From Alkalihalobacillus sp. LMS39 (lineage in GTDB: Bacteria; Bacillota; Bacilli; Bacillales; Bacillaceae_F), in assembly GCF_022812285.1 (NCBI RefSeq), contig NZ_CP093300.1, positions 434,001-498,000 of the forward strand: DNA of 64,000 nt. The letters are read 5' to 3'. The translations under genes were made by a program, and so were the position numbers. Numbering within the stretch: position 1 is the first letter of the stretch; each line of letters begins with the position of its first letter. Shown here piece after piece: positions 18,184-51,999 of the stretch. The notes under the pieces are model-generated. The model made no database searches. It saw nothing but the letters and a program-made list of their open reading frames with translations, and had not been told where the DNA came from.

Positions 18184-19437
<1,254 letters not shown>

Positions 19438-19442
19438 TAGAA

Positions 19443-19472
19443 GAAGCTTCGCTCATTTGAGCGAAGCTTTTC
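19443..19472 (+). terminator. terminator after the xylanase gene
   Basis: Stem AAGCTTCGCTC/GAGCGAAGCTT with a 4-base loop followed by TTTCT. Confidence 0.85.
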
Positions 19473-19495
19473 TGATTGTGCACCAACGTATACCG

Positions 19496-19681: not shown

Positions 19682-19698
19682 AAAACGCCTTGCTTCAT

Positions 19699-19736
19699 TA
19701 AAAAAGGCTGTCGAGACATTTTAACCTCGACAGCCT
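19699..19736 (-). terminator. terminator after the GH43 gene
   Basis: On the minus strand an 11-bp stem (AGGCTGTCGAG and complement) is followed by six T. Confidence 0.85.
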
Positions 19737-19749
19737 ACAAATTCTGGCT

Positions 19750-21357: not shown

Positions 21358-21438
21358 TTTTCTTCACCTCAACATGAATATTTTTTGATAACACTTTTGA
21401 TAATGAACAGTTTTGTTTGGATTAAAGCATCACCCCTT

Positions 21439-22635: not shown

Positions 22636-22721
22636 GCTTCCTTTTAGTTTTTATATCAAGTCAATTATAGTGATTAAATAGAAAAACCTTCCATAACAGC
22701 ATCATAACATAACATAAGATG

Positions 22722-22736
22722 TTGGAAACGCTTCCT
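22722..22736. promoter_or_regulatory. cre (CcpA site) between xylR and the transporter operon
   Basis: TTGGAAACGCTTCCT matches the cre consensus at all positions and is nearly palindromic, so it could act on either divergent promoter. Confidence 0.75.
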
Positions 22737-22773
22737 CATAAATCTATTATAGCATTTAAAAAAATATATTGCA

Positions 22774-22802
22774 CTTAGTTTATCCACTAGACAAACGATG
22801 TT
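22774..22802. promoter_or_regulatory. XylR operator between xylR and the transporter operon
   Basis: Reads CTTAGTTTATCCACTAGACA and continues AACGATGTT. It shares the left half and the TAGACAAAC right half with the other XylR sites. TAGACA at 22788-22793 may also be the -35 of the transporter promoter. Confidence 0.75.
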
Positions 22803-22876
22803 TTTAATGATACCATTTATATTAAGTTAGCAAAACAAACAGCTAACATGTTTAATCATACTAAGGGGGTATCGTA

Positions 22877-24205: not shown

Positions 24206-24270
24206 TCTTTACAGAGGTATCTGCTAGTTTACAAGAGAATACAACATAAAGAAGAGCTCCTGTAATAAAT

Positions 24271-24305
24271 GAAAAGGACGATTCCCGCGTTGGATAGTCC
24301 TTTTC
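24271..24305 (+). terminator. intra-operon hairpin after the binding-protein gene
   Basis: Stem GAAAAGGAC/GTCCTTTTC around a 17-base loop, 26 bp before the permease start. It lacks a long T tract, so it more likely stabilises or attenuates the transcript than ends it. Confidence 0.6.
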
Positions 24306-24331
24306 AAATTCAGATCAAGGGGGTTAACAGT

Positions 24332-25210
24332 ATGGATAAGGTAATGTCGAATAAATGGTTTATCGCTTTATATATTCTTCCTGCATTAATATTAGTAAGT
24401 ATCCTCATCTTCATCCCTTTACTATTAACAGGGTACTATGGCCTTATGAAATGGGATGGAATTGGAGCAATGCAGTTTATTGGATTAGATAATTATGTTC
24501 GAGTCGTACAAGACGCTAAATTTTGGCAAAGTGCATGGCACTCTTCTTTATTAGCAGTTTTTTCAACATTAAGTCTTATTATCTACTTATCTGTTTCGAT
24601 GATTCTTGCTTCTAAAATTAAAGGGTCCGATCTTTTAAGGAAGATTTACTTAATTCCTATGCTTTTGTCTTCAGTGGCGATTGCACAGCTTTGGATTAAG
24701 ATTTACAACCCTTCAAATGGGATGTTAAATACTGTTCTTGGTTGGTTTGGTGTAACGAATCCACCGTTATGGCTTGCTGACCCAAATATCGTTCTTTTCT
24801 CGATTTTTATTCCAATTTTATGGCAATATGCAGGATTTTACATTTTGATTTACTATGCTGCACTAAAAGGAATTCCGGAATCAATTATGGAAGCGGCTAG
24901 AATTGATGGAGCTTCGCCGGTTCAAATTGCTTACAGAATTAAATTGCCACTTATTATGGGTGTTGTAAAAGTAACCGTTGTTCTTGCTATTGTTGGTTCA
25001 CTTAAATATTTTGATTTAATTTATGTTATGACTGGTGGGGGACCAAACGGAGCAAGTGAAGTTATGGCTTCATACATGTATAAGCTAGCATTTGGAGCAA
25101 ATAACTTTGGATACGGAAGTGCTGTTGGTTTCATGTTACTTATTATTACATTAGTAGTAACAGTGGTAATTCGTAAAGTTACAGCAGAAAAAGAAGAGAT
25201 TCAATATTAA
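24332..25210 (+). CDS. ABC sugar transporter permease, MalF type
   Basis: Inner-membrane permease of 292 residues with six predicted membrane segments. I start at 24332 (MDKVMSNKWF) because AAGGGGG stands 8 bases upstream; the frame is open 21 codons earlier, across the hairpin, without a start signal. The EAA loop that docks the ATPase reads EAARIDGASPVQIAYRIKLP (about 210-229). It is the first of two permeases behind the binding-protein gene and should form the heterodimeric channel for xylo-oligosaccharides. No ATPase gene is present nearby. Confidence 0.93.
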   Translation: MDKVMSNKWFIALYILPALILVSILIFIPLLLTGYYGLMKWDGIGAMQFIGLDNYVRVVQDAKFWQSAWHSSLLAVFSTLSLIIYLSVSMILASKIKGSDLLRKIYLIPMLLSSVAIAQLWIKIYNPSNGMLNTVLGWFGVTNPPLWLADPNIVLFSIFIPILWQYAGFYILIYYAALKGIPESIMEAARIDGASPVQIAYRIKLPLIMGVVKVTVVLAIVGSLKYFDLIYVMTGGGPNGASEVMASYMYKLAFGANNFGYGSAVGFMLLIITLVVTVVIRKVTAEKEEIQY

Positions 25211-25224
25211 GGGAGGTTTTTGTA

Positions 25225-26046
25225 ATGGGGCGTATAGGTTACTTTTTTCTTTATTTAGCTTTGGGCGTTGTTGCGGTATTTCAAATTTTCCCTATTGTCT
25301 GGCTGTTTCTTTTCTCCTTAAAAGACAATCGTGAAATTTTTGCAGGTTCCCCGTTTGCATTGCCCGAACAAATTAAATGGGAAAACTATTTAGCAGTTTG
25401 GGAAGGCGGCATTGGTGGATACTTTTTTAATAGTGTTTGGATTACAGGTGTTTCTATTTTACTTACATTATTAATCGGTAGTATGGCAGTGTTTGTTATT
25501 ACGAGAATGAAATGGAAGCTTAGTAAACTAGTATTAGGATTATTTATGGTCGGTCTTATGATCCCGATTCATTCATCATTAATTCCGCTTTTTAGTATGT
25601 TTTTAAATGTCAACATGATTAATAATCCATGGTCGATTGTTATCACATATACAGCGTATAATCTACCAATTACGATGATGATTTTACTAGGGTTTTACAC
25701 AACGCTTCCAAGAGAAATTGAAGAAGCAGCCATTATTGATGGTGCATCACTACATCGCTTATTTTTCCGAATTATTTTACCAATTTCTGCACCGATTTTA
25801 TCAACGACAGCGATTATTAATATGATTTATAATTGGAATGAGTTTGTTTTTGTTAATACGTTCATTAGCTCTGACAAATATAAAACATTAACAGTAGGAA
25901 TTCAAAATTTCGTTGGTCAGTATATGACGGATTGGGGCGCGATTGGAGCAACACTTATTATTAGTGTATTACCGATTTTACTTGCATTCTTGTTCTTTAG
26001 TAATAAGATTGTTGAAGGGATTTCTTCTAGTGCCGTAAAAGGATAA
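25225..26046 (+). CDS. ABC sugar transporter permease, MalG type
   Basis: Second permease of the importer, 273 residues, six membrane segments. The EAA loop reads EEAAIIDGASLHRLFFRIIL (about 170-189). GGGAGG stands 8 bases before the ATG, and only 14 bp separate it from the first permease stop. The C-terminus is the typical QYMTDWGAIGATLIIS...FLFFSNKIVEGISSSAVKG. Together with the upstream permease it needs a shared MsmX/MsmK-type ATPase encoded elsewhere. Confidence 0.93.
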   Translation: MGRIGYFFLYLALGVVAVFQIFPIVWLFLFSLKDNREIFAGSPFALPEQIKWENYLAVWEGGIGGYFFNSVWITGVSILLTLLIGSMAVFVITRMKWKLSKLVLGLFMVGLMIPIHSSLIPLFSMFLNVNMINNPWSIVITYTAYNLPITMMILLGFYTTLPREIEEAAIIDGASLHRLFFRIILPISAPILSTTAIINMIYNWNEFVFVNTFISSDKYKTLTVGIQNFVGQYMTDWGAIGATLIISVLPILLAFLFFSNKIVEGISSSAVKG

Positions 26047-26050
26047 AAAA

Positions 26051-26076
26051 CACCTGCCTTTAAAAAAAGACAGGTG
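26051..26076 (-). terminator. terminator between convergent genes
   Basis: Stem CACCTG..CTTT/AAAG..CAGGTG. On the minus strand it is followed by TTTTTT and so ends the YesL-like gene; the plus strand has no T tract. Confidence 0.65.
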
Positions 26077-26081
26077 AGTCA

Positions 26082-26690
26082 TTATCTAGTTTTCTTTTCG
26101 GCAATTTTTTTAAAAACATCTAGTGAAAACCAAACTGTAATAAAACAATAAAAGCTTGCACCAAATACGAAACCTAAAGCTGGAATAAGATAAACAATGA
26201 AATAAAATGCCACTAGACTAACTAAGATAAACACGGTATGAATCGGACTTACGAACATCATGAGAATGGCATTTTTAAAGGTTTGGGCAATCGATAAATC
26301 AAAATGGACATAAGTTGGAAAAAGGTAAAAGAGCAACATGATAAATAGCAACATTCCAGCTAATAAAGGTGCAGTCGTCCAAGTGAGCAGTTCTCCAATG
26401 TTAGTGTACAGAAAGAAAATGTTGAAAATAAATATAAAGGAAATAACGTAAATAAATAAACCTAAAAAGTTACTTTTGAAAAATTCACTTTTATAGTACT
26501 GCCAGAAGGATTTTAAAACAGGCGAATCTGAATTGCCTCTTAGCCATTGTCTTACTAAAGAAAACATGGCGATTGTAGCAGGGAATAACCCAAAAAGTAT
26601 TCCACCAGCTAATGTGAATAAAACCCATAAGACGTTTATATAAGCGAAGCGTGTGATCCATTCTAAAATTTGATAAAGCGCGCGACTCAT
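26082..26690 (-). CDS. YesL-like DUF624 membrane protein
   Basis: A 202-residue integral membrane protein with about five hydrophobic segments. The N-terminal WITRFAYINVLWVLFTLAGG and GLFPATIAMFSLVRQWLRG are characteristic of the DUF624/YesL family, which is found next to carbohydrate ABC transporters in Bacillaceae. AGGAGG stands before the ATG. It is convergent with the permeases and divergent from xylB. An accessory role in sugar transport is usually supposed but not proven. Confidence 0.85.
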   Translation of the reverse strand: MSRALYQILEWITRFAYINVLWVLFTLAGGILFGLFPATIAMFSLVRQWLRGNSDSPVLKSFWQYYKSEFFKSNFLGLFIYVISFIFIFNIFFLYTNIGELLTWTTAPLLAGMLLFIMLLFYLFPTYVHFDLSIAQTFKNAILMMFVSPIHTVFILVSLVAFYFIVYLIPALGFVFGASFYCFITVWFSLDVFKKIAEKKTR

Positions 26691-26761
26691 AGTGTACCTC
26701 CTGATTTAGACATTCATTTACTATTATAAAGGATCATAACGTAATTATTATAGTAAATTAA

Positions 26762-26790
26762 AACTTTGTTTGTCTAATGAATGAACTATC
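26762..26790. promoter_or_regulatory. XylR operator upstream of xylB
   Basis: On the minus strand it has ATAGTTCATTCATTAGACAA then ACAAAGTT; the right half matches the other sites well and the left half is weaker. It lies between the divergent YesL-like gene and xylB, just after a TATAGT -10-like hexamer at 26749-26754. Confidence 0.6.
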
Positions 26791-26859
26791 GAAGTGAACT
26801 GCTTACATGATTTAAATGTTCAGGCAGTACTAGTAAAAGCGAAGATCGGAGAGGATAAA

Positions 26860-28359
26860 ATGAAATATGTCATCGGTGTAGATTTGGGTACAAGTGCTGT
26901 GAAAATATTACTAGTAAATCAAGAAGGCGATGTAGTGAAGGAAGTATCAAAAGATTATCCACTCATCCAAGAAAAAACGGGGTACAGTGAACAAAATCCA
27001 GACGATTGGGTTACACAAACGGTGCAGGGTTTACAGGAGATTACTGCAGCTTTTGATGGAGACATAAATGATATTGAAGGAATGAGTTTCTCAGGGCAAA
27101 TGCATGGGCTTGTGTTGTTAGATGAGCATCATAATCCTTTACGTCATGCGATTTTATGGAATGATACAAGGACAACAGCGGAATGTAGAGACATTTATGA
27201 AAAAGTTGGGGAAGAGCGTTTACTTGAATTAACAAAAAATCCAGCACTAGAAGGATTTACGTTACCAAAAATTTTGTGGGTGCAAAAACATGAACCAACG
27301 ATTTTTTCTAAAGCGAAAACTTTTGTGTTGCCAAAAGATTATGTTCGTCTTAAATTAACAGGAAAGCTCCATATGGACTATTCAGATGCGGCTGGAACTT
27401 TATTATTGAATGTTTCTAAAAAAGAATGGAGCAAAGAAATTTGTGAGCAATTCCAACTTGATGTAAATTTTTGCCCGCCTTTAGTTGGTTCTCATGATGA
27501 AGTGGGTACGATTCTTCCAGCAGTAGCAGAACAAACGGGGTTATCTAGTGCAACTAAAGTATTTGCTGGTGGAGCTGATAATGCATGCGGAGCGATAGGT
27601 TCTGGTATTTTAGAAGAAGGAAAAACATTAGCTAGCATTGGTACATCAGGCGTCATTTTATCATACGAATCTAGTGAAGATAAAGATTTTAAAGGAACTG
27701 TACATTATTTTAATCATGGTGCACCAAATGCTTTTTATACAATGGGTGTGACGTTAGCGGCGGGGTATAGTTTAAGTTGGTTTAAAGATGTTTTTGCTAA
27801 AGGTGAAGAATTTACAGAGCTTTTAGCTAATGTCAGTAATATTCCACCAGGTGCAAATGGGCTGTTGTTCACACCTTATATCGTAGGAGAACGAACACCA
27901 CATGTGGATTCAACAATTCGAGGAAGCTTTATAGGGATGGATAGTTCACATACACGTGATGATTTTGTTCGTGCAGTACTTGAAGGGATCACATTCTCTT
28001 TACATGAATCCATTGAAATTTTCCGTAACCATGGAAAGCAAATTGATACCGTTGTTTCGATCGGTGGCGGGGCAAAAAATGAAGCATGGCTTCAAATGCA
28101 AGCCGATATTTTCAACGCGAAAATTGTAAAGTTATCGAGTGAACAAGGTCCAGGAATGGGAGCAGCTATGCTAGCAGCATATGGTTCTGGCTGGTTTGGA
28201 TCTTTACCAGAATGCGCAAACACATTCTTAAAAGTAGATAAAGAGTTTATTCCAAACGAAGAAAATGTCTCTCGATATAATGAAATATACAAATTGTACA
28301 AAGAAGTGTATGTACAAACAAAAGAGTTGAACGAAAAGCTAGTTCCATTACGAAAATAG
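26860..28359 (+). CDS. xylB: xylulokinase
   Basis: Phosphorylates D-xylulose to D-xylulose-5-phosphate; FGGY kinase family, 499 residues. I start at 26860 (MKYVIGVDLGTSAVK) because GGAGAGG stands 6-7 bases upstream. The first phosphate-binding loop is GVDLGTSAVK (6-15), MSFSGQMHGLV (about 75) contacts the sugar, and D240 in FAGGADNACG is the catalytic base. VVSIGGGAKNEAWLQMQADI (about 391) is the second FGGY signature. It is placed apart from xylA but has its own XylR-type operator. Confidence 0.97.
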   Translation: MKYVIGVDLGTSAVKILLVNQEGDVVKEVSKDYPLIQEKTGYSEQNPDDWVTQTVQGLQEITAAFDGDINDIEGMSFSGQMHGLVLLDEHHNPLRHAILWNDTRTTAECRDIYEKVGEERLLELTKNPALEGFTLPKILWVQKHEPTIFSKAKTFVLPKDYVRLKLTGKLHMDYSDAAGTLLLNVSKKEWSKEICEQFQLDVNFCPPLVGSHDEVGTILPAVAEQTGLSSATKVFAGGADNACGAIGSGILEEGKTLASIGTSGVILSYESSEDKDFKGTVHYFNHGAPNAFYTMGVTLAAGYSLSWFKDVFAKGEEFTELLANVSNIPPGANGLLFTPYIVGERTPHVDSTIRGSFIGMDSSHTRDDFVRAVLEGITFSLHESIEIFRNHGKQIDTVVSIGGGAKNEAWLQMQADIFNAKIVKLSSEQGPGMGAAMLAAYGSGWFGSLPECANTFLKVDKEFIPNEENVSRYNEIYKLYKEVYVQTKELNEKLVPLRK

Positions 28360-41476: not shown

Positions 41477-41743
41477 ATGACACACAGAAGAAGACATGAT
41501 GATGTAGATGCCATTAACACGAACGCTGAAAACCAAAATTTAGTATTAAGTGACAGTGATAGTAGAGCAAAAAGTCAAAACGAAAACTTTCTGAAAGACA
41601 AGAACTTTAATACGAATAAAGCAAATGCGATTATTGAGGGCAGTGGAAATGCAACTGTTGATGTAGCAGTTGATGCAGAGTCATTTGCGAAAAATCGAAA
41701 TAAAGCATTTGCTGATGCAGATGCAATCGCGAAAGACCGTTAA
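41477..41743 (+). CDS. small Asn/Ala-rich protein, probable spore-surface protein, paralogue 1
   Basis: An 88-residue hydrophilic protein without signal peptide. It shares with the protein at 42248 the blocks SDSRAKSQNENFLKD (about 27-41), NKANAIIE (about 47-54) and VDAESFAKNRNKAFADADA (about 65-83). Composition is rich in Asn, Ala, Asp and Lys, which suits an intrinsically disordered or beta-layered coat component. AAAGGAGGG precedes the ATG. The SigK-like promoter and the neighbouring mnx and CotB-like genes point to the spore coat or exosporium. I know no named family. Confidence 0.7.
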   Translation: MTHRRRHDDVDAINTNAENQNLVLSDSDSRAKSQNENFLKDKNFNTNKANAIIEGSGNATVDVAVDAESFAKNRNKAFADADAIAKDR

Positions 41744-41770
41744 TATTTTCGGTTCCTATTGAAATATGTT

Positions 41771-41801
41771 GGAAAGGGCACTTAATAGTGTCCTTTCTTA
41801 T
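41771..41801 (+). terminator. factor-independent terminator
   Basis: Stem GAAAGGGCACT/AGTGTCCTTTC followed by TTATT, after the first Asn-rich gene. Confidence 0.75.
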
Positions 41802-41827
41802 TATACGAAGAAACGAGGTGAGAATAG

Positions 41828-42073
41828 TTGTATTCAAGTGAATCGAATGTAAACAAAAGTGGGAACTCTGATGTTGATGTCACTGTAATTGTGGAAACTT
41901 CTGCCTTAGCTTATGCATTTCTTTGTTTCATGTATATAGATGGTCGAATAAATAAAGAACAGTATGACGAGATGGTAGCGGAAATGAAAAAAGTAGCAAA
42001 AGAACCTAACACTAACCCAGCTGTGGAGAAGAAAAAACCTATAAATCGGTTAAGATTAAGAAATAAAAAATAG
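41828..42073 (+). CDS. small hypothetical protein, 81 aa, between the Asn-rich paralogues
   Basis: TTG-started frame with GAGGTGA 6-7 bases upstream. The N-terminus (MYSSESNVNKSGNSDVDVTV) is polar and recalls the Asn/Asp-rich style of its neighbours; the middle VETSALAYAFLCFMYIDGRI is hydrophobic, and the C-terminus is Lys/Arg-rich. A short polar start, one hydrophobic stretch and a basic tail suggest a small spore-coat anchor, but this is inference. It is co-directional with both paralogues, with a terminator just before it. Confidence 0.6.
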   Translation: MYSSESNVNKSGNSDVDVTVIVETSALAYAFLCFMYIDGRINKEQYDEMVAEMKKVAKEPNTNPAVEKKKPINRLRLRNKK

Positions 42074-42194
42074 AACAGGTTCAAGTAATCATTTATATGA
42101 ACTGAAAATCTGTTGAGTCTAGTAAAAAAGGGCAGTAGCACGATTAAATAAATTCACTAGTAAAATTGAGGCAAGTGTATTCAGTAACTTGTCT

Positions 42195-42223
42195 ACACAG
42201 TATCATTTTTGCTTCATATAGTA
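42195..42223 (+). promoter_or_regulatory. SigK-like promoter of the second Asn-rich gene
   Basis: CATATAGTA at 42215-42223 is an exact CATANNNTA match; AC dinucleotides at 42195 and 42197 give spacings of 18 and 16 bp. The 40 bases upstream resemble those of the 41477 gene (CTTGTCTA-ACA shared). Confidence 0.6.
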
Positions 42224-42247
42224 AAAGTAAAGAAAGGAGGGGAGAGA

Positions 42248-42541
42248 ATGAGCAAATTTAGAGAACAGTTTGTTGATGATGTGGATACGATTGACACAAA
42301 TGCAGAGAATGAAAACTTTGTATTAAGTGCTAGCGATAGCAGAGCAAAAAGTCAAAACGAAAACTTCTTAAAAGACCAAAACGTAAATGTGAATAAAGCA
42401 AACGCGGTGATAGAAAATAGCGGAAACGCGGTAGTAAACGTAACAGTAGATGCAGAATCATTTGCGAAAAACCGAAATAAAGCATTTGCTGATGCGGATG
42501 CCGTTGCTATTGAAGATGATAGAAAAAAATTCCGTTATTAA
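42248..42541 (+). CDS. small Asn/Ala-rich protein, probable spore-surface protein, paralogue 2
   Basis: A 97-residue protein, start at 42248 (MSKFREQFVDDVDTID) with AAAGGAGGGG upstream. It aligns with the 41477 product through DTNAENENFVLSASDSRAKS (about 18-37), NKANAVIENSGNAVV and VDAESFAKNRNKAFADADAV, with a distinct N-terminus and an EDDRKKFRY tail. It has no Cys and almost no aromatic residues in the shared part. The exact SigK-type -10 supports a sporulation role. The pair is a local duplication. Confidence 0.7.
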   Translation: MSKFREQFVDDVDTIDTNAENENFVLSASDSRAKSQNENFLKDQNVNVNKANAVIENSGNAVVNVTVDAESFAKNRNKAFADADAVAIEDDRKKFRY

Positions 42542-42637: not shown

Positions 42638-43909
42638 TTAATGATTGTGATGCCGATGTTCGTGATCGTTCCAGTGAAGTTCCGTTTTATCTGGAGTAGT
42701 CGTAGTGGAGAGGAAGCCTGAAAGGATAACAAGGATAAGTAAAAAAACGAACTCAATTCGTAGTAGAAACAGTAGCTTTCGTAAATGATTATGCTTATCT
42801 GAAAAATTGACTGAGTCTCGTAATAATGGAACCCATACGAATGTGTGAAAACAAGTGATGAGTAATATCATCACGGTTACAATTAGCTTTGCTAACAACC
42901 ATTTTCCATAGGGAGTTGTAGTAAGCAGATTCACGCTTTCAATATAAGTGAAGCTCATGATTAAGCCGGAGAAGATGACAACAACAAAAAGAATGAAAGA
43001 AACAATGAAAAACCGCTGGATGCATTTATGGATCAGTTGCATTCGAACATAAGATGGTTCACGAGTAAAGGAATAAACGAGCAAGGAGAGCAATCCACCT
43101 ACCCAAACAGAAGCTGCGACTAAATGGACACTATGGGATAGGGTTTGGTTAACAGAAAAGGAATGACTAGTAAGTGAAAATGTGAAGAGTAACAGTATGA
43201 CCATTATAAGAGCAAATGATTTGTGAAAGTTACGGATAATGAAAAATAAAAATCCAGCAACAAACAATGGTCGAAGCATAGGGACAAAGGTTAACCAAGA
43301 ATCAATTGTTAAATGAGGAATGAAAACTTGAAAACTTTTGACAAAATAAAGAAAGAAAATAAAGCTGTAAATCGATACCTCGATTTTTTTGCTAAACGGG
43401 TGTAGGAGTAGTGGAGATGTATTTTTATCTGCAAGCCAATGTATAAAAAAATATAAACCAATTAGTACTACAAATGCGAACAATTCAACTATTTTAATAA
43501 CGGAAAGGCTAGTCTGGCTAGGGACTTGCTGTGACACTTGTTCGGTTGTAGATTGAATTGAAAAATGATGCGAACCATTCATAGTATGCTCATTATAAAA
43601 TGTGACTTCCCATTGAACTTTGTATTTCCCCTCATCTAAATTGGGAACAAAAAGTACAAGCTTGGTCAGCTCTGTACATACCAATTCCCCTAAGACACTA
43701 TCCCCTTTTTCTGTGAAAAGTTGTATAGAACTGGACTCCAAGCGAATAGGTTCAGAAAAAGTGAGAGAAATATTATCTAATGGTTCCTTGAGGACGGAAT
43801 TAGGACTAGGAAAGGTCTCCTCAAGTATTGGTTGGGATGAAACATGACTAGGAATGAAAGCCATGAAAAAAAGAAAAAAGAAAACGAGTAAAAACATCCT
43901 CTTACCCAA
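42638..43909 (-). CDS. CopC-CopD fusion copper protein (YcnJ-like)
   Basis: A 423-residue copper import/resistance protein. A signal sequence (about 1-25) leads to a CopC beta-barrel (about 26-120) beginning PILEETFPSPNSVLKEPLDN, with the GSHHFSI strand that carries copper-binding His. A linker of Gln/Ser precedes a CopD membrane domain of about eight segments (about 135-410) with the conserved LSHSVHLVAASVWVGGLL. The tail HWNDHEHRHHNH is a metal-binding His cluster. Start is TTG at 43909 with GAGGTGA 4-5 bases upstream. Its position beside a multicopper oxidase operon suggests that it supplies copper for metallation. Confidence 0.88.
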   Translation of the reverse strand: MGKRMFLLVFFFLFFMAFIPSHVSSQPILEETFPSPNSVLKEPLDNISLTFSEPIRLESSSIQLFTEKGDSVLGELVCTELTKLVLFVPNLDEGKYKVQWEVTFYNEHTMNGSHHFSIQSTTEQVSQQVPSQTSLSVIKIVELFAFVVLIGLYFFIHWLADKNTSPLLLHPFSKKIEVSIYSFIFFLYFVKSFQVFIPHLTIDSWLTFVPMLRPLFVAGFLFFIIRNFHKSFALIMVILLLFTFSLTSHSFSVNQTLSHSVHLVAASVWVGGLLSLLVYSFTREPSYVRMQLIHKCIQRFFIVSFILFVVVIFSGLIMSFTYIESVNLLTTTPYGKWLLAKLIVTVMILLITCFHTFVWVPLLRDSVNFSDKHNHLRKLLFLLRIEFVFLLILVILSGFLSTTTTPDKTELHWNDHEHRHHNH

Positions 43910-43944: not shown

Positions 43945-44361
43945 TTACACCTTCATAGAATAACAAAGCATCCCCAACAGTAGAAAGACGAGAGATTGAG
44001 TAAAGCCAATAAGAATAAGACTGTGCTGAGCCATATCCCCAATCATTGGAGCCATTATTCCACTCATCACCCCACTAGTTACCCCCATAATCACGGTTTG
44101 ATATTCAACTAATGAACCGAACAATACACCTATTGCGATTCCGATAATCGTTGTAAGTATTGTCATCTCTGTAAATTGGAAAGGAAAGTGGTAAATCAAA
44201 ATTAACCCCGATGCAATAGAGATAATGCCAGTAGGAGTCATTGCTACATTCATTCCTAAATGATAACCAATTAATTTACGCTTCTTGAATAAATATTGGT
44301 ATGTTAGGCCAGCTACGATGAAGTTTACATAAAACAAAACCCATAAGATTGTTCCAACCAT
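43945..44361 (-). CDS. small membrane protein upstream of CopCD
   Basis: A 138-residue protein with four membrane segments (about 3-20, 33-56, 64-84, 110-134). The third and fourth flank a Met-rich loop, GVMSGIMAPMIGDMAQH, whose Met and His residues could coordinate copper. A good ribosome binding site (GGAGGTG) precedes the ATG. It lies 35 bp before the CopCD gene on the same strand, so the two are probably one operon, divergent from the mnx genes. I do not know a named family; a copper-handling role is inference. Confidence 0.7.
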   Translation of the reverse strand: MVGTILWVLFYVNFIVAGLTYQYLFKKRKLIGYHLGMNVAMTPTGIISIASGLILIYHFPFQFTEMTILTTIIGIAIGVLFGSLVEYQTVIMGVTSGVMSGIMAPMIGDMAQHSLILIGFTQSLVFLLLGMLCYSMKV

Positions 44362-44486
44362 GAAAACACCTCCAGTAATAAAATATGAAATAACAAGTCA
44401 TTTAGAAGAATATTTTTCCAGTTAAAAAATATAGATTATTCCTTTGCCCAAATTTTTCAATTTAATTCCTAAAAAATACAATCGGT

Positions 44487-44495
44487 CATATGTTT
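44487..44495 (+). promoter_or_regulatory. possible SigK -10 element of the mnx operon
   Basis: CATATGTTT resembles CATANNNTA with one mismatch and lies 36 bp before the first gene. No AC is found at the right distance, so the call is weak. Confidence 0.25.
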
Positions 44496-44530
44496 AGTTA
44501 GTAAGAAGTGATAGGGAGGGAGATAAATGG

Positions 44531-45316
44531 ATGAAACAATCCGATATCAGATTGGATGAATACGTAGAAAAGTTGTGGGAGCAAAGGAATAAGGAGAAAG
44601 TCAATGAAAGTTCGGAAAACTTGGTTCGTTTAAAAAATGGTGAAGGTCTTTCCTCACCCGGTAGTGATTTACCTGCAGAAGAATTAAAGCTTGTTCAACA
44701 ACATATTCACCGTTCGAATTTATTCCAGTTAAGCAAAGCATTACCGGACAAAAAAAAAGAATTGATTCTTAGAAAATTTTTTAAACATAAGCGTAACCAA
44801 CAAGTCGAAGTTTTTATTCATTCGGACCGAAACAATCCAATTCATATCGTTGGGAAAGTGAACACGATAGGCAGAGATTTTGTGACCTTAACAACTTTAA
44901 AAGACCGAATATGGTTGCCTTACACAAACATTGAATCTGCGAATGTGCCATACGGATTACCAGAAGTGTCATCGACCCATCAGCATTTTGTGTATGATGA
45001 GGAGTTACGGAATAAATTGATCACGCGATTTAGTGAGACGGTTATAAGTAAAGACGTATTACTTCAGCAGTTTTTTGAAGAAACGTTAGAAACGAACTTA
45101 CAAACATGGAAAGGGACAAATGTCAAAGTCATTACACAAGACACGACGTATTCCGGAAAGATTGTTCAGTCAAAAGATGGCATTGTTGAACTAAAACGAA
45201 GGGGGCAAATACCACTTTCAGAAATCAAGGTATTAAAATCAATCCGGCTTTCAACGATGTTGATAGGATTTTTGAGAAGTAAGAGCCATATTCGTAAGGA
45301 GGATAACAATGGATAG
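44531..45316 (+). CDS. CotB/LSm-like spore protein, first gene of the mnx operon
   Basis: A 261-residue protein with two copies of a small beta-barrel like that in spore coat protein CotB: VEVFIHSDRN..GKVNTIGRDFVTLTT..IWLPYTNIESA (about 93-138) and VKVITQDTTYSGKIVQSKDGIVELKR..IPLSEIKVLKS (about 198-240). The N-terminal 70 residues are charged and helical. GGGAGGGAG precedes the ATG. Its end overlaps the mnxE-like gene by 8 bp, giving tight coupling. By position it could match one of the genes upstream of mnxE in marine Bacillus (mnxA-D), but I cannot name which. Confidence 0.75.
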   Translation: MKQSDIRLDEYVEKLWEQRNKEKVNESSENLVRLKNGEGLSSPGSDLPAEELKLVQQHIHRSNLFQLSKALPDKKKELILRKFFKHKRNQQVEVFIHSDRNNPIHIVGKVNTIGRDFVTLTTLKDRIWLPYTNIESANVPYGLPEVSSTHQHFVYDEELRNKLITRFSETVISKDVLLQQFFEETLETNLQTWKGTNVKVITQDTTYSGKIVQSKDGIVELKRRGQIPLSEIKVLKSIRLSTMLIGFLRSKSHIRKEDNNG

Positions 45317-45656
45317 AGAATCAAAGGAACAGCATGAAAAAAAAGTGACGATTACTCCTCTTGAAGAAGAGAAGGGCATAGCGAAGTGTGATCCGCTATT
45401 AATACGAGACCTTGTAGATGAAGATGTCCTTATCGTACTTGAAAGTCATCAACTCAATATTTTAGGTCAAACGTTTCGGCCTATTTTTACAGGTAGAATC
45501 ATTGAAGTGACATTTGGTTTTATCACATTGACAAATGTCATTATTAAAATGCCGAATGCTCCTTTTTACGAATTCCCTACTCCACTCAGTTTTCCAATAG
45601 AGAGAATAGTAGGTGTGACAAGGTTTGATCCTAGAACGGTCATTCCGTTAACTTAA
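45309..45656 (+). CDS. mnxE: MnxE-like small subunit of the manganese oxidase complex
   Basis: A 115-residue protein, about 13 kDa, whose size and place two genes before the oxidase match MnxE. After a charged start (1-25) comes a compact beta-rich domain: LVDEDVLIVLESHQLNIL..FTGRIIEVTFGFITLTNVII..FPIERIVGVTRFD. The pattern strand - GRIIEV - FITL - IPxxxIxGV is the LSm/CotB-like barrel also seen in its neighbours. In characterised Bacillus, MnxE and MnxF form a ring with MnxG and bind copper. A GAGGA ribosome binding site lies inside the preceding gene. The name rests on synteny and size. Confidence 0.75.
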   Translation: MDRESKEQHEKKVTITPLEEEKGIAKCDPLLIRDLVDEDVLIVLESHQLNILGQTFRPIFTGRIIEVTFGFITLTNVIIKMPNAPFYEFPTPLSFPIERIVGVTRFDPRTVIPLT

Positions 45657-45678
45657 ATTTTGGAAAGGAGAGTTTTTC

Positions 45679-45960
45679 ATGACAATGCCCAATTTTGGCC
45701 AAATTGAACATGACAACCGTACAGAAGCATTAGCGGACCATTTTAGAGAAAATATCGGAAACCGTGTTTTTATTTTAGTGCCACAATTTCCGTTTATGTA
45801 TATCGGAATCATCATTGATGTCATTGGTGATCAGTTAATTCTTGATGTAGACACAACCCATATCGAACAATTGGAAAATCGTATTTGGGAAATCCATATT
45901 GATACGATTCATGTCTTTTACGTTGAAAGAGATGGATGGCCAACCATTCCAACATTCTAA
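45679..45960 (+). CDS. mnxF: MnxF-like small subunit of the manganese oxidase complex
   Basis: A 93-residue protein, about 11 kDa, directly before mnxG as MnxF is. The N-terminus is polar (HDNRTEALADHFRENIG); the core NRVFILVPQFPFMYIGIIIDVIGDQLILDVDTTHIEQL..IWEIHIDTIHVFYVE is an LSm-like barrel related to that of the mnxE product. GGAAAGGAGAG precedes the start. His residues at about 10, 21, 60 and 74 could serve copper sites. The gap to mnxG is 22 bp with a good ribosome binding site, so the three genes are one unit. Confidence 0.75.
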   Translation: MTMPNFGQIEHDNRTEALADHFRENIGNRVFILVPQFPFMYIGIIIDVIGDQLILDVDTTHIEQLENRIWEIHIDTIHVFYVERDGWPTIPTF

Positions 45961-45982
45961 TAACAGAAGGAGAAGAATAACG

Positions 45983-48900
45983 ATGCTAAGAAGATACCAT
46001 GTTGTTGCCATTCCAATTCGGATTGTGTACAACAACTTTGGCGATCATGATCCAGATGGACGAATGTATGTATTAAAAGAAAACGAAGAGTTAGTTAGAG
46101 AACTTGTGAAGAAAAATCCATTTACACCAGTTGAGCTAGTCCAACCTTTAGCAATTCGAGCCAATGTTGGCGATGACGTCGAAATATTATTTGAAAATCA
46201 ATTAAAGACACCTTCTTCGATGCATTTCCAAGAAGCAGATTATGATGTGAAAACTTCAGACGGAGCAAATGTTGGATTTAATCCAGATACAACGGTATTA
46301 CCTGGTGGAGAAATTGTTTATTGTCTCAAAGTTCATAAAGAAGGGATATACTATTTTTCTGATGTGGCCAACCCGCTTGATGGAGAAAATTTAGGAACGA
46401 ATATTCATGGACTATTTGGCGCTATCTTTGTCCAATATAAAGGTTCAACATGGACGGACCCAGTGACAGGTGGGCCCATTCATAGTGGTGCCATAGCTGA
46501 TATTCATCATCCTCTATTACCTTCATTTCGAGAATACGGCTATTTTTTTCACGATGAACCGGAAAACGATGATTTAACCGGAAACGAACGGATAAATCCG
46601 ATGACAGGACAGCCGGCAGAATCGGTTCACGCAATAAATTATCGTTCAGAGCCTCTTGCGAACCGTTTCCGCTTAATTGATGAAGGTGTAGTTTGTCCTG
46701 ATTGTGACTCTGAAGAAGTTCATCATGATTCATGGGTGTTTGGTGATCCGGCAACACCTATATATAGAGGATATGTTGGTGATCCGGTAAAAATTCGTCT
46801 TGTTCACGGTGGTGTAAAAGAAACACATGTGTTCCATTATCATGTTCACCAATGGTTGTTCGACCCAGAAGATGTCGATTCATTCACAAAAGACTCACAG
46901 GCTATTAGTCCGCAAAACCATTATACAATTGAACCGTTTTATGGATTAGGAAGTTTGCACGGTGCAATAGGAGATGTGATCATCCACTGTCATTTATACC
47001 CTCACTTTGAAGATGGAATGTGGAGTATTAATCGGATATTTGACACGTTGCAAGATGGAAGTCAATGTTATCCAAATGGTGTACCTATTAAACCGTTACA
47101 ACCTTTACCTGATAGACCATGTCCGCCTAAGCCAACATTAGAGAGACCAGGTTTTCCAAACTTTATTCCTGGTAAAGTAGGGTGTAAAGCACCAAGACCA
47201 CCACTAGGAATCATTGGTGGAAGAGAAATGACGGTACTCGAAGAAAATGCGGCTGTTCCTAATGCAAGACCAGGTGCGGTCTTTGTTGATTCTTGTATTG
47301 GAAACCCAGTTACTAAAGAATTTAACGTATCTGCGATTGAACTACCAATCATATATAATCGTGAAGGTTGGCATGACCCAAAAGGAAGGATTTACGTCTT
47401 AGATGAAGATGTGGAAGCGGTGTTATCAGGAAAAAAAGAGCCAGAACCTCTTGTGTTACAAGCAGAAGCGGGTACGTGTATTCGAATTAATTTTACGAAT
47501 AAACTTCCGAATGTGTTAGATGGTGATGCTTTTCAATTAGTGACACGAACTTATGAAGCATCAATGCATGTTCATTTTGTGAAATTTGATGTTCTTGTTT
47601 CAGATGCAGCGAATGTAGGTTGGAATTATGATAGTAGTGTTCTTCCTGGTGAGACGATTCGTTATGAATGGTTTGCAGATGTTGAGCTTAAAGCAACATT
47701 TTTCCACGACCATTTATTTGCCTCTGTTCACCAACAGCACGGGTTGTTCGGATCGATTAACATCCTTCCGAGGTTTTCGTGTGTGTTTGATTCATGCACT
47801 GGAGAAGAAGTGGACCATGGTACACAAGTAACAGTAACAAATCCACTTATTCCAGATTATCGAGATTACACGTTGTTCATTCATGACTTTGCGCTTTTGT
47901 TTGATAAAGATAAATGTCCAATTGAACCACCACCTTTTCCTGGTTCACAAGATGACCCTGGTATATTTGGGGTGAATTATAAAAATGAACCATTGCAGTT
48001 TCGGTTAGGTAAACATTGTAATCCGGCGTATTCATTCAGTTCCACTGTTCATGGTGATCCAATAACACCACTGCTTCAAGCGTATTCCGGTGACCCCATT
48101 CGGTTCCGGGTGCTACAAGGTGCACACGAGGAAAGTCATAGCTTTAATGCGCATGGCCTTCGTTGGAATGAGGCACGTCGGGATGTCGATTCTAATGAAA
48201 AAAATCAGGAACACCTTGGAATATCAGAGTCTTTTACGTTTGAAACCTTTATCCCTCGTCCAGGAGATTATTTATGGGCATTTGAAGATGTAGAAGATCT
48301 TTGGATTGGAACATGGGGCATATTACGAGCGTATGATAAAGAGGTTCCTAATTTAATCCCGTTGCCTGACCGACCATTACCCCCTATTGATGGTGGTGTA
48401 TTCCCAGAAGTAACGGGTATGCCTCCAGAACTAGCTTGTGATGATGGATGTATATGTCCTGACGGAGCCATTGTGAGGAAATATCATGTTGTGGCACTTC
48501 AAACATGCATCGAATACAACAAATATGGGGACCACGATCCTTACGGTATTGTTTTTGCTTTAAAAGAAGATGTCGATGATATTTTATCAGGTAAGGTGAA
48601 TCCGGAACCGTTAGTTATAAGAGCAAATGTCGACGAATGTGTAGAAATCACGTTGGAAAATAGACTCGATCCAGCCTTATTTCATGTAGAAGACGGTGTA
48701 CATCGTTACCCGGAAGTGAAAGTACCAGCATTTTATCCCCCGTCTCCTCGGATTTCACTACACCCGCAATTAATTGATTTTGACATTCGAACTTCGAGTG
48801 GGGAAACGGTTGGCTTTAATCCAGACCAAACCGTAGGGCCAGGAGAAATCATCACCTATCGTTGGTATGTAGATAAGCCATATGGTGCATGTAATCTTTG

Positions 48901-49648
48901 GGATATGGCGGATATAAGAAATCACCGTCACCACGGCGCCTTTGGTGCATTCATTGCCGAACCAAAAGGGTCAGTGTATTTAGACCCTATCACATTAAAG
49001 CCAGTGAATTCGGGCACAAGTGTTATTATTAAAAACCCGTTACTTCCAGATACTCGTGAGTTTGTGTTGCTTATGCATGATGGTGTAAGGCTATTAGATA
49101 AGAAAGGACAGCTCATTGTTGATCCGCCAGACGGACTAATTGAAGAAACAGACCCAGACGAATTTGATACGTACGACCAAGGTTCACGTGGTTTTAACTA
49201 TCGTACAGAACGATTAATTAATCGCTATACGGAACAGTTCACAATTCAAGATTGGGCAAGTTCATTTACTTTTGGTGATCCGGCCACCCCTGTTTTTGAA
49301 GCGTATCCAGGTGAACCGACTACTGTAAGGTTGGTCGTACCTGCCGAACGAAGACGTACGCATACGTTTCATATCCATGGTCATTACTGGCGAAGAGACC
49401 GTGAAGATGTCGATTCTAAATTTCGCTCGGTGGAAGGTCAAAATATTATCGGTCACAAATTAGATGCTCGCTTAGTAGGTGGAGCTGGAGGACTTTATAA
49501 TTTTCCTGGTGATTATATGTATCGTTCGGGTAATATTCGTTGGGATATTGAATTAGGAATGTGGGGGATTATTCGGGTCCATGAGAAACTTCAACCATAC
49601 CTCCCACCTATTACAGGCTGCTTATGCATGGTAGAGGAGGTGGAGTAG
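45983..49648 (+). CDS. mnxG: MnxG, multicopper manganese(II) oxidase of the spore surface
   Basis: A 1221-residue multicopper oxidase, the size of MnxG (about 138 kDa), which oxidises Mn(II) to Mn(IV) oxide on spores. Start at 45983 (MLRRYHVVAIPIRIVYN) with AGAAGGAGAAG upstream. It consists of three related units of about 400 residues (1-444, 445-830, 831-1221), each opening with a xYHVVAxxxxIxYNxxGDHDPxG pattern and presumably holding two cupredoxin domains, as in ceruloplasmin. Copper motifs: HVFHYHVH (H282, H285, H287, H289), HCHLYPH (H335, C336, H337, H341), HVH (H529, H531) and HDH (H575, H577). A further HTFHIHGH at 1127-1134 lacks a matching HCH. No signal peptide is seen, as expected for mother-cell assembly. 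Confidence 0.9.
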   Translation: MLRRYHVVAIPIRIVYNNFGDHDPDGRMYVLKENEELVRELVKKNPFTPVELVQPLAIRANVGDDVEILFENQLKTPSSMHFQEADYDVKTSDGANVGFNPDTTVLPGGEIVYCLKVHKEGIYYFSDVANPLDGENLGTNIHGLFGAIFVQYKGSTWTDPVTGGPIHSGAIADIHHPLLPSFREYGYFFHDEPENDDLTGNERINPMTGQPAESVHAINYRSEPLANRFRLIDEGVVCPDCDSEEVHHDSWVFGDPATPIYRGYVGDPVKIRLVHGGVKETHVFHYHVHQWLFDPEDVDSFTKDSQAISPQNHYTIEPFYGLGSLHGAIGDVIIHCHLYPHFEDGMWSINRIFDTLQDGSQCYPNGVPIKPLQPLPDRPCPPKPTLERPGFPNFIPGKVGCKAPRPPLGIIGGREMTVLEENAAVPNARPGAVFVDSCIGNPVTKEFNVSAIELPIIYNREGWHDPKGRIYVLDEDVEAVLSGKKEPEPLVLQAEAGTCIRINFTNKLPNVLDGDAFQLVTRTYEASMHVHFVKFDVLVSDAANVGWNYDSSVLPGETIRYEWFADVELKATFFHDHLFASVHQQHGLFGSINILPRFSCVFDSCTGEEVDHGTQVTVTNPLIPDYRDYTLFIHDFALLFDKDKCPIEPPPFPGSQDDPGIFGVNYKNEPLQFRLGKHCNPAYSFSSTVHGDPITPLLQAYSGDPIRFRVLQGAHEESHSFNAHGLRWNEARRDVDSNEKNQEHLGISESFTFETFIPRPGDYLWAFEDVEDLWIGTWGILRAYDKEVPNLIPLPDRPLPPIDGGVFPEVTGMPPELACDDGCICPDGAIVRKYHVVALQTCIEYNKYGDHDPYGIVFALKEDVDDILSGKVNPEPLVIRANVDECVEITLENRLDPALFHVEDGVHRYPEVKVPAFYPPSPRISLHPQLIDFDIRTSSGETVGFNPDQTVGPGEIITYRWYVDKPYGACNLWDMADIRNHRHHGAFGAFIAEPKGSVYLDPITLKPVNSGTSVIIKNPLLPDTREFVLLMHDGVRLLDKKGQLIVDPPDGLIEETDPDEFDTYDQGSRGFNYRTERLINRYTEQFTIQDWASSFTFGDPATPVFEAYPGEPTTVRLVVPAERRRTHTFHIHGHYWRRDREDVDSKFRSVEGQNIIGHKLDARLVGGAGGLYNFPGDYMYRSGNIRWDIELGMWGIIRVHEKLQPYLPPITGCLCMVEEVE

Positions 49649-49649
49649 A

Positions 49650-50408
49650 ATGAGTCATGACCATGAATGTGATGAATTTCGTTGTCCCCCTGTCGTACCA
49701 GCCGATGCTCCTGATGATTTTTGTATCCCGGAAGAATGTTGTCCAGAAAGAATACGAACACCGAAATTCCCTTCACCGAATACGTGTTTACCACAAGAAG
49801 AATTAGAAGAGCTAGAAAGAAAAATTAGTGAGGCAAATGAATTGTTATTAAGTCTTGCTCTAACTAGAGGAAATGAAGAAGAAGGTGTGCTTGAGCAAGA
49901 ACGGTTGCGTACAGCTTTTGAAGGTTTAAAAGGGAAAGTCATTAAAGTAGAAGTATCAAAAGAAAATCAAAGAAGATCTTTACTTGTTCGTGGGATTGTT
50001 TCCCTTGTAGGAAGAGACTTTGTTTTACTAGAGGATGAGAACTACCTCAAAATTATTCGTTTAGAAGATGTATGTTCGATTAAGAGCCCGACTGAACTAT
50101 GTGATGTCCATGAGAAGCAAGAGTTAATTGGAATAGACCCTTGCTTGCGTAGAGCTATTACGTTAGATTTTGGGGCTACAGTTGCCAAATCACCAGAATT
50201 GATTCAAATCTTTTTTGGAATCGATTTAAAAACATTTCTTTGTTTTTTCGAGAAAAGAATAGTGAGGGTCAAAACAAAGAAAAGGGTGTTCATCGGTCGA
50301 TTCATAAGAATGGAGCCTCACGAGGTAACATTTCGTCAAGGGAGAAGGCAAAAGGCTGTACCGGTCGAGGAGATTACTTTGTTAAAAATAAAAAAACGAA
50401 AAAAATAA
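49650..50408 (+). CDS. Cys-containing CotB/LSm-like protein downstream of mnxG
   Basis: A 252-residue protein starting 1 bp after the mnxG stop, so surely co-translated. The first 45 residues (MSHDHECDEFRCPP...PEECCPERIR) are rich in Cys, His, Asp and Pro and could bind metal or crosslink. A helical charged stretch (50-90) leads to two LSm/CotB-like barrels: GKVIKVEVSKEN..RGIVSLVGRDFVLLED..IIRLEDVCSI (about 93-145) and KRIVRVKTKKRVFIGRFIRMEPHEVTFRQ..VPVEEITLLKI (about 200-248). A structural spore-surface partner of the oxidase is likely. Confidence 0.75.
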   Translation: MSHDHECDEFRCPPVVPADAPDDFCIPEECCPERIRTPKFPSPNTCLPQEELEELERKISEANELLLSLALTRGNEEEGVLEQERLRTAFEGLKGKVIKVEVSKENQRRSLLVRGIVSLVGRDFVLLEDENYLKIIRLEDVCSIKSPTELCDVHEKQELIGIDPCLRRAITLDFGATVAKSPELIQIFFGIDLKTFLCFFEKRIVRVKTKKRVFIGRFIRMEPHEVTFRQGRRQKAVPVEEITLLKIKKRKK

Positions 50409-50470: not shown

Positions 50471-50995
50471 TTAATAATGATGGAATTTTTTATCATCGTC
50501 TACTTTGACGACTTTAATTTCATGAAGTGGTACAATTAGGAAATTATCTTTATGGGATTTGCATTTACATCGGCTCTTACAATGACAATCTTTTTTGCGT
50601 TTACGACCATCGTCAATTTTTTCAATTTCAACAAAATCGCGACCGACGTGACAAATAATGCCTTTAAATCGATTGCACTCGTCTCCACATTCCACTTCAA
50701 GCTTAACAACACAGCCTACTAGCTGGCGTAATCTAAAGGCTAATCCACCATCTAATCCTCTTAGACGAACATTAAATCTGTCATCACAGATGCGGTCGTG
50801 TTTAAAGCTGTGATGCCCATGACATCGATGGGAATCACAACAATGATGGTCTCTGTGGTGGTGACATGGTCGTTTGCAATCACATAAACTTCGACAGTCA
50901 CGATGGTGATGACGGAAATCAAACCCGCAATGACAACGAGAGAAAAAATCATGACGGAATCTACCACATGAATGGCATTCAAATCCGTGGCTCAT
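50471..50995 (-). CDS. His/Cys-rich CotB-like spore protein
   Basis: A 174-residue protein with two parts. Residues 1-70 hold an exceptional number of His and Cys (for example CHHHRDHHCCDSHRCHGHH) with Arg and Asp, a likely metal-binding or crosslinking segment. Residues about 80-170 form one LSm/CotB-like barrel: LVGCVVKLEVECGDECNRFKG..CHVGRDFVEIEK and FLIVPLHEIKVVKV, interrupted by a second Cys/Lys-rich insert CHCKSRCKCKSHKD. I start at the ATG at 50995, where AGAGGTGA is 8 bases upstream; a GTG four codons earlier is possible. It is convergent with the mnx operon. Confidence 0.78.
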   Translation of the reverse strand: MSHGFECHSCGRFRHDFFSRCHCGFDFRHHHRDCRSLCDCKRPCHHHRDHHCCDSHRCHGHHSFKHDRICDDRFNVRLRGLDGGLAFRLRQLVGCVVKLEVECGDECNRFKGIICHVGRDFVEIEKIDDGRKRKKDCHCKSRCKCKSHKDNFLIVPLHEIKVVKVDDDKKFHHY

Positions 50996-51028
50996 ATTTT
51001 GATTCACCTCTTTCCCTTTGATTTACTT

Positions 51029-51141: not shown

Positions 51142-51624
51142 ATGACATCTTCCACGCCGTATGTAGGAAACACTTTTGATGAGAAAACAGGAAATCAAAC
51201 ATTGTATTATTCAGGAAAGAACAAATCCAATCGGAAAAATGGCCCGAATATATTAAAGCATTTCGAACAAGAAGTACAAAAATTAGGGAAAACAAAACGA
51301 GAAAAGATGTTATCGGAGATTGAATTCGTTCAATTATTAATAGATGCATATGAAAACCATGAAAAGACAATTGTTGAATTAAAGGGAAAGCTAGAAAAGC
51401 AGTCGAGTAAAAAAAGCCCTTTTCATGAATTATTTAAAACATTACCTCCTAATTATCCAGTTCAGGAAGTACTACTAAATGGGGCTCTTGTTCCAGTTAC
51501 ACGATTTTTAAATGTAAATGAAGAAGGTAATATTGCGCATTTCTCTGAAGAAGACAATATTAAATCTTTGAGTATGGATAAAATTGATGGAGTGTATTGG
51601 GGGAGTGATGGGATTGAATGTTAA
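51142..51624 (+). CDS. hypothetical protein with an LPPNYP domain, probable spore protein 1
   Basis: A 160-residue protein. The N-terminal half (1-90) is polar and helical with a coiled-coil-like stretch (LIDAYENHEKTIVELKGKLEKQ). The C-terminal 60 residues, from TLPPNYPVQEVLLNGALVPV to MDKIDGVYWG, are clearly homologous to the C-terminal part of the convergent protein at 51670. AAAGGAG precedes the ATG. It lies within the spore-surface region but its own promoter is not recognised. Function unknown. Confidence 0.7.
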   Translation: MTSSTPYVGNTFDEKTGNQTLYYSGKNKSNRKNGPNILKHFEQEVQKLGKTKREKMLSEIEFVQLLIDAYENHEKTIVELKGKLEKQSSKKSPFHELFKTLPPNYPVQEVLLNGALVPVTRFLNVNEEGNIAHFSEEDNIKSLSMDKIDGVYWGSDGIEC

Positions 51625-51626
51625 AG

Positions 51627-51657
51627 AAAGCAGGGAAAATCATGACTTCCCTGCTTT
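51627..51657. terminator. bidirectional terminator
   Basis: Stem AAAGCAGGGAA/TTCCCTGCTTT between the two convergent LPPNYP-domain genes. Confidence 0.8.
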
Positions 51658-51669
51658 ACATAAGAAAAA

Positions 51670-51945
51670 TTAATCGGGTAGTTCTGTTTCACCGAATGCA
51701 ATCCCAGTGATTTTATCAACTTCTAATACAATAACTTGACCTTCTTCATCTAAAAAGTAGGCAAGACCGTCGCAAACATTTGAAAAGAAAGCTACGATAA
51801 TTAATTTGCCCTTCACAAAAACGCCACCGATTGGATAGTTAGGAGGAAGCTTTTTTAGAATGTCCTCCACACGACGATCATCCTTTTTGTCTTTTTTATC
51901 AAGAAGATCCTTCAATAAGTTTTCAAGCCCTAAATTACTAGACAT
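51670..51945 (-). CDS. hypothetical protein with an LPPNYP domain, probable spore protein 2
   Basis: A 91-residue protein, start at 51945 (MSSNLGLENLLKDLLDKKDK) with GAAAGGAGAG 7 bases upstream. After a charged helix (1-30) comes the domain LKKLPPNYPIGGVFVKGKLI...LAYFLDEEGQVIVLEVDKITGIAFG, which matches the C-terminal domain of the 51142 product (LPPNYP, a beta pair, then xxDKIxGxxxG). Its upstream region has an exact SigK-like -10, so a spore role is likely. No named family is known to me. Confidence 0.72.
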   Translation of the reverse strand: MSSNLGLENLLKDLLDKKDKKDDRRVEDILKKLPPNYPIGGVFVKGKLIIVAFFSNVCDGLAYFLDEEGQVIVLEVDKITGIAFGETELPD

Positions 51946-51999
51946 TTTAACTCTCCTTTCTAACGTCAAAATAGTTTCTCTATACTAAGAGAACTACTA

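Follow-up and report, generated by a model that had tools for sequence, protein, structure and literature searches.

The question raised by one gene cluster of the haloalkaliphile Alkalihalobacillus sp. LMS39 is whether it encodes a manganese oxidase of the Mnx type, in which a large multicopper oxidase, MnxG, is accompanied by two small subunits, MnxE and MnxF, and how far it departs from the systems already described. The cluster lies in a 64,000-nucleotide stretch of NZ_CP093300.1 (positions 434,001 to 498,000), referred to as the window, whose own numbering is used throughout; the host genome is a single contig of 4,850,562 bases. Spore manganese oxidation has been described for marine Bacillus (PMC5622069), and the mnx genes are found here in a soda-lake haloalkaliphile that comes from dry Lake Magadi sediment and was cultured in the presence of 1% sodium carbonate and 4% NaCl (PMC9302142); this bears out the alkaliphilic Bacillaceae host proposed in the original prediction from the bare DNA. 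Considered as a whole, the window is best explained, with high probability, as carrying an Mnx-type spore manganese oxidase locus, and spores coated with Mn(IV) oxide are the predicted phenotype. By its sequence, the locus belongs with the known MnxEFG systems and shows two departures, namely a CopC-CopD fusion (CopCD) without a SCO1-like mnxC, and an MnxE that lacks a cysteine pair.

Identity of MnxE, MnxF and MnxG

Three consecutive genes carry the identification (lengths in amino acids, aa):

45309-45656, + strand: MnxE, 115 aa (match to 9bxa_B at E 3.8e-21; profile search 1.4e-44)
45679-45960, + strand: MnxF, 93 aa, predicted Sm-like fold (match to 9bxa_E at 1.6e-25; profile search 1.5e-39)
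45983-49648, + strand: MnxG, 1221 aa, multicopper oxidase (match to 9bxa_A of 1966 bits over residues 1-1209)

Compared with the chain sequences of the PDB, all three proteins match a single entry, 9bxa, entitled 'Structure of Mnx H340A complex from Bacillus sp. PL-12', in which chains A, B and E are named 'MnxG', 'MnxE' and 'MnxF'. The sizes, order and single strand of the three open reading frames (ORFs) are, by their coordinates, as originally predicted. MnxG is 68% identical to MnxG of Bacillus sp. SG-1; its mechanically called ORF opens at a TTG at 45899, and the 1221 aa are counted from the ATG at 45983, a start that agrees with residue 1 of the 9bxa MnxG. Pfam recognises only generic Cu-oxidase_2 and Cu-oxidase_3 domains in MnxG, a result that would also suit an ordinary spore laccase of the CotA or bilirubin oxidase type misread as MnxG. 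Such an identity is ruled out by the 1966 bits of the 9bxa match against 40 bits for the next distinct solved sequence, a two-domain laccase, and the partners E and F are present, so that a misread laccase has next to no probability; the best match, by which the original prediction had proposed to tell MnxG from these enzymes, is MnxG among solved structures. A PF07731 search of the host genome for other multicopper oxidases was negative (0 of 1, with 9 of 14 control genomes positive) and says little because MnxG itself, which matches PF07731 at 1.2e-11 as a protein, went undetected.

The copper motifs of multicopper oxidases, with their textbook roles, are all present in the window MnxG as H282xxH285xH287, H335-C336-H337xxxH341xxxxM346, H529xH531 and H575xH577. 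Each of the 12 ligand positions in these four motifs is identical in all 96 rows of the MnxG alignment, of which 85 come from the named loci and the window and 11 from other genomes, some near-identical to named ones. Six further positions outside the motifs, H927, D974, D977, H981, H1132 and H1134, are also identical in 96 of 96 rows and are candidates for a substrate-manganese site or a further metal site. The type 1 copper histidine H341 aligns with an alanine in 9bxa, in line with the H340A of its title and a difference from the window; all three subunits of the PL-12 Mnx complex (PDB 9bxa, PMC5622069) are common to the window, where an E3F3-G complex would be expected as well. The PL-12 work describes oxidation of Mn(II) through Mn(III) to Mn(IV) and copper in MnxE and MnxF. 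By analogy, the window MnxG would convert Mn(II), by way of Mn(III), into Mn(IV) oxide, the electrons passing via its copper sites to O2.

Gene neighbourhood across relatives

One peptide-seeded scan of 84,980 species genomes returned at least 136 MnxG relatives, a lower bound because the scan seeds on exact peptides. The best 80 of these 136, together with the window, make up 81 loci that span about 8 kb or end at contig ends, and related loci among them are not independent. The genes mnxE, mnxF and mnxG stand in this order in 74 of the 81, which, with the matches of all three subunits to 9bxa and the intact copper ligands, upholds the mnxE-mnxF-mnxG cluster as first proposed. Among the seven exceptions, L068 and L085 run into contig ends, L088 carries a fusion, L019, L020 and L032 have F and G with no recognisable E, and L093 has G alone. 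The three loci with F and G are from Domibacillus (two of them D. indicus), with F in two frames in L019, and L093 is a second Mesobacillus foraminis locus. Two mnxG genes per locus are seen in L015 (7309-15614), L017, L023, L025 and L031; a 252-aa-type gene lies between the two copies in L015 and L025, and L031 has a repeated E-F-G set.

Around the three genes, the window holds the following features:

42638-43909, - strand: CopC-CopD fusion, 423 aa (Pfam CopD 2.7e-17, CopC 3.4e-13)
43945-44361, - strand: small hydrophobic protein, 138 aa, of the family in the mnxA/mnxB position of SG-1 (homologues in 60 of 81 loci)
44362-44530, no strand: divergent intergenic region with the sigma-K-like -10 element CATATGTTT before the 44531 gene (pattern scan)
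44531-45316, + strand: MnxD-position protein, 261 aa (ORF list)
49650-50408, + strand: 252-aa protein homologous to the MnxD-position protein (99.9% in hhalign against the family of the latter)
50471-51007, - strand: His/Cys-rich protein, 178 aa, convergent with the operon (hhalign 96.6-96.8% to the 252-aa family)

The five genes from 44531 to 50408 are joined by an 8-base overlap, two 22-base gaps and a 1-base gap, and purine-rich runs resembling ribosome-binding sites lie upstream of the ATG start codons in mnxE, mnxG and the gene for the 252-aa protein. The CopCD gene and the 138-aa gene, whose product has no Pfam family above cut-off, both point away from the operon. Within about 8 kb, the 81 loci contain MnxG in 81, the MnxE/F family in 79, the 261/252-aa family in 73, the His/Cys-rich family in 67 and the small membrane-type family in 60, with SCO1-like genes in 39 and CopCD in 11.

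The SG-1 locus (L064), compared here as the marine operon, reads membrane, membrane, SCO1, 267-aa, E, F, G, a 273-aa gene and a convergent His/Cys-rich gene, the first four of which we take by position to be mnxA to mnxD. Its gene directly before mnxE is a homologue of the 261-aa protein at 1e-63, and it has a member of the 252-aa family at 1.2e-33, so that E, F and G are common to the window and SG-1, as are the MnxD-position gene preceding E, the 252-aa-type gene that follows G and the His/Cys-rich gene convergent with the operon. The coat-like genes that frame the unit had been taken as a difference from the marine operon, a view that does not stand: SG-1 has all three families (those of the genes at 44531, 49650 and 50471), as do most of the 81 loci, and the framing genes therefore belong to the system. 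What does differ is that SG-1 carries two genes of the small membrane type and a SCO1-like gene, all collinear with the operon, whereas the window has a single membrane-type gene and CopCD, each directed away from the operon, lacks a SCO1-like gene and has an MnxE without the cysteine pair. The arrangement of the window recurs in Alkalihalobacillus bogoriensis (L021, MnxG 99% identical) and Halalkalibacter alkaliphilus (L015, 86%), where CopCD and the membrane-type gene diverge from the run of MnxD-position gene, E, F, G and 252-aa-type gene and the His/Cys-rich gene is convergent, L015 differing from the window in its two mnxG genes. A. bogoriensis is the published nearest relative of LMS39 (PMC9302142).

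Proposed copper supply and the MnxE cysteine pair

The lack of a SCO1-like mnxC at the locus had been remarked from the start and is confirmed, as no such gene is found in the window, and a whole-genome search for SCO1-type mnxC gave two matches, both outside the window and 33% and 26% identical. The CopC-CopD fusion has a probable role in copper handling or import, and one further CopC-like match lies elsewhere in the host genome. None of the 81 loci combines CopCD with a SCO1-like gene, whether the latter lies at the mnxC position or elsewhere; each is present without the other, and 31 loci have neither. In the 85-row MnxG tree, SCO1 is seen within one clade of 61 rows only. CopCD is seen in two groups, the window/Halalkalibacter group, which lies outside that clade, and a distinct Lysinibacillus/Ureibacillus/Neobacillus/Peribacillus group, in whose loci its orientation is opposite to that of the membrane-type neighbour. 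The CopCD tree is weak, with 5 of 17 inner branches starred, and its 20 rows include L102 and L104, seemingly wrong ORFs under the longest-ORF rule that were kept in on very long branches. In this tree the window copy groups with L015 and the unlinked relative L103, apart from the copies of the Lysinibacillus to Peribacillus group, to which it is 21-25% identical and no closer than to unlinked copies. CopCD could also be one ancestral mnx gene with later losses; because the tree keeps the two sets apart, at least two recruitments look likelier than an ancestral linkage lost later. SCO1 and CopCD are probably alternative copper helpers, with CopCD probably recruited twice, and in the window lineage copper would probably be supplied via CopC-CopD, replacing the SCO1-like MnxC.

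The cysteine pair of MnxE, located in an FCG motif and near the C-terminus, is variable among relatives. In 75 MnxE sequences, a set that excludes the fused L088 and the cut L085, both cysteines are present in 43, neither in 31 and a single one in 0, and in the remaining sequence (L016) the first is absent and the sequence ends before the second. A disulfide has been reported in PL-12 MnxE, and together with this both-or-neither pattern it points to the bonded pair, which the window MnxE lacks. The pair is absent in the window lineage and in all 11 CopCD loci. Taking the first cysteine as a proxy for the pair, the MnxG tree requires 12 state changes, at least 9 of them forced by starred branches, and the pattern suggests that natural Mnx complexes can dispense with the MnxE disulfide. 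No clean link is seen between the pair and the SCO1-like gene (both 26, SCO1 alone 13, cysteines alone 17, neither 19).

A natural fusion of the two small subunits is found in an Ammonifex metagenome-assembled genome (L088:7283-7987), where a 234-aa ORF that joins an MnxF-like module to a downstream MnxE-like one (profile matches of 6e-22 for E and 2e-11 for F) stands directly before a 53% identical MnxG. Three copies of this F-E fusion would give an alternating ring; L088 is a single metagenome assembly and its MnxG lies on a long branch of the MnxG tree. The cysteine-pair pattern, the exchange of mnxC for CopCD and the F-E fusion are testable handles on copper acquisition and assembly.

The missing cysteine pair and the replacement of the SCO1-like gene by CopCD indicate that the window system has diverged, and together with the Lake Magadi habitat they would suit a different use of the enzyme, in which MnxEFG is assembled on spores and acts in this lineage mainly on another metal or on an organic compound, such as Cu(I), Fe(II) or phenols, as little Mn(II) may be in solution at soda-lake pH. 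The identity of 68% to SG-1, the full-length PL-12 match and the retention of all copper ligands argue for manganese instead, and the six invariant positions outside the motifs are expected if substrate use is shared; another main substrate is accordingly improbable.

Predicted folds, sporulation signals and the spore surface

Modelling and fold comparison predict for MnxF an Sm/LSm/Hfq fold consisting of an N-terminal helix and a five-strand barrel. The AlphaFold2 model of the MnxD-position protein (pLDDT 78) contains two predicted small beta barrels, at about 83-140 and 182-240, of which the second is clearly Sm/LSm/Hfq-like in fold comparison, with a helix and five strands; the first has five strands in the model and few rows in the comparison, where it is little tested because the second module dominates the fold list. 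Sequence identity in the fold-comparison rows listed is 9-19%. The folds predicted for MnxF and for the second module at the MnxD position resemble those of Sm/LSm/Hfq ring proteins and of the coat protein GerQ (8zra), a likeness that does not imply RNA-related functions. Given these predictions, the E3F3 hexamer described in print is probably a ring of the Sm type, and MnxE and MnxF of the window would form a copper-binding E3F3 hexamer, most likely of this geometry, that is needed by MnxG. Such a fold would, if true, give a direct reason for the alternating hexamer and tie MnxE and MnxF to the neighbouring spore-locus proteins. MnxE and MnxF were described in 2017 as without known homologs, and the prediction for MnxF and the MnxD-position protein is a new addition, although the paper behind 9bxa may already describe the ring.

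Profile comparison with hhalign links the MnxD-position family to the 252-aa family (99.9%), the latter to the His/Cys-rich family (96.8%) and MnxE to MnxF (83.7%), the links of the 252-aa, His/Cys-rich and MnxE families being by profile only. The alignments used are parts of the sets (A1 54/65, A2 56/79, A3 36/70, A4 35/68, A5 31/75). MnxE and MnxF show weak sequence homology to the flanking families, with 36.9%, 11.6% and 8.2% for MnxE against the 252-aa, MnxD-position and His/Cys-rich families and 55.7%, 3.3% and 2.3% for MnxF against the His/Cys-rich, 252-aa and MnxD-position families, the first of these falling to 12.7% with fewer rows. Searched against the PDB, the MnxD-position family profile found no significant chain (best 1ycy_A, 0.027), nor did the His/Cys-rich profile (best 0.15, ubiquitin entries).

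The 178-aa protein of the window is 24% histidine plus cysteine and its core is related to the 252-aa family. In its family of 68 the median is 15.5% and the lowest value 6%, compared with a median of 3.4% for the 1185 ORFs longer than 150 aa of the mnx loci; with this range, a metal-gathering role fits many members and not each. The open-licence literature searched assigns no role to the neighbouring spore-locus proteins; for those encoded at 44531, 49650 and 50471, the likeliest role would be to anchor the enzyme in the spore surface or to organise it there. A more far-reaching proposal, which as a joint whole we regard as tentative, is that the Mnx oxidase is a coat-built machine. The Sm-ring subunits MnxE and MnxF would derive from an Sm-fold spore family still encoded nearby (two tandem-barrel members and one His/Cys-rich), the E3F3 adaptor would plug MnxG into their scaffold, much as Sm-fold GerQ builds filaments, the His/Cys-rich member would gather metal or seed oxide, and copper loading would have been rebuilt more than once, with SCO1 or CopCD.

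Expression late in sporulation, under sigma-K, is the timing expected for the mnx genes. Scanned for in the 130 bases upstream of the start, the motif CATANNNT[AG], which we take to be a sigma-K-like -10 pattern, precedes the 261-aa homologue in 16 of 34 operon-first loci, against a mean of 3.2 and a maximum of 9 in shuffles. It precedes the His/Cys-rich gene in 42 of 68, against a mean of 6.2 and a maximum of 14, and in most cases lies 20-50 bases from the start. The 200 shuffles preserved dinucleotides where the walk succeeded and were otherwise plain. In the window, CATACGATA upstream of the 50471-51007 gene matches the pattern, and the host genome has matches above cut-offs to sigma-K, CotE and, twice, GerQ.

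Several observations speak against a working Mnx-type spore manganese oxidase, or against parts of that reading. The NCBIfam MnxG equivalog NF041487, a model of 1894 positions, matches the window MnxG at 4.6e-100 with 335 bits, under its curated cut-off of 3100. NF041487, which likewise represents a multidomain multicopper oxidase named for Mn(II) oxidation, appears to describe another MnxG type, presumably that of Pseudomonas; its cut-off excludes the spore-type MnxG of the window, and automatic annotation may therefore leave the gene as a generic multicopper oxidase. The mutual exclusion of CopCD and SCO1 is not phylogenetically independent, and the independent-pairs test lacked power, since none of its 7 pairs was informative (p 1). 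Full-length MnxG is present in 10 of 61 genomes, the window's own included, with weak partial matches in 2 more, and among these 61 no mnxG was found in one genome of the same genus (G002) and four of a sister genus; the trait is thus patchy. The CATATGTTT element before the 44531 gene is one base off the scanned pattern. The last two points would also agree with a relic or silent locus, homologous yet unexpressed or inactive. Such a state is very unlikely, since all ORFs are open with good ribosome-binding-site-like runs, the A. bogoriensis locus with its near-identical MnxG is open too, and the copper ligands are all kept.

Beyond the Mnx-type locus itself, three small ORFs of 88, 81 and 110 aa lie just past CopCD at 41477-42541. 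Two of them resemble each other and are rich in Asn, Asp and Ala; among the loci compared, they are matched in the window and L021 only and are possibly spore-surface proteins. Adjoining the His/Cys-rich gene, 51142-51969 encodes related small proteins of 160 aa (+) and 99 aa (-) with a common LPPNYP motif, a family found in 5 of 81 loci. Further away, 12079-28359 holds an apparent xylose/xylan set, named from reading the translations only, with isomerase-, xylanase-, xylosidase-, ROK-regulator-, ABC-transporter- and xylulokinase-like ORFs and, inside it, a transposase-like ORF at 15842-17413.

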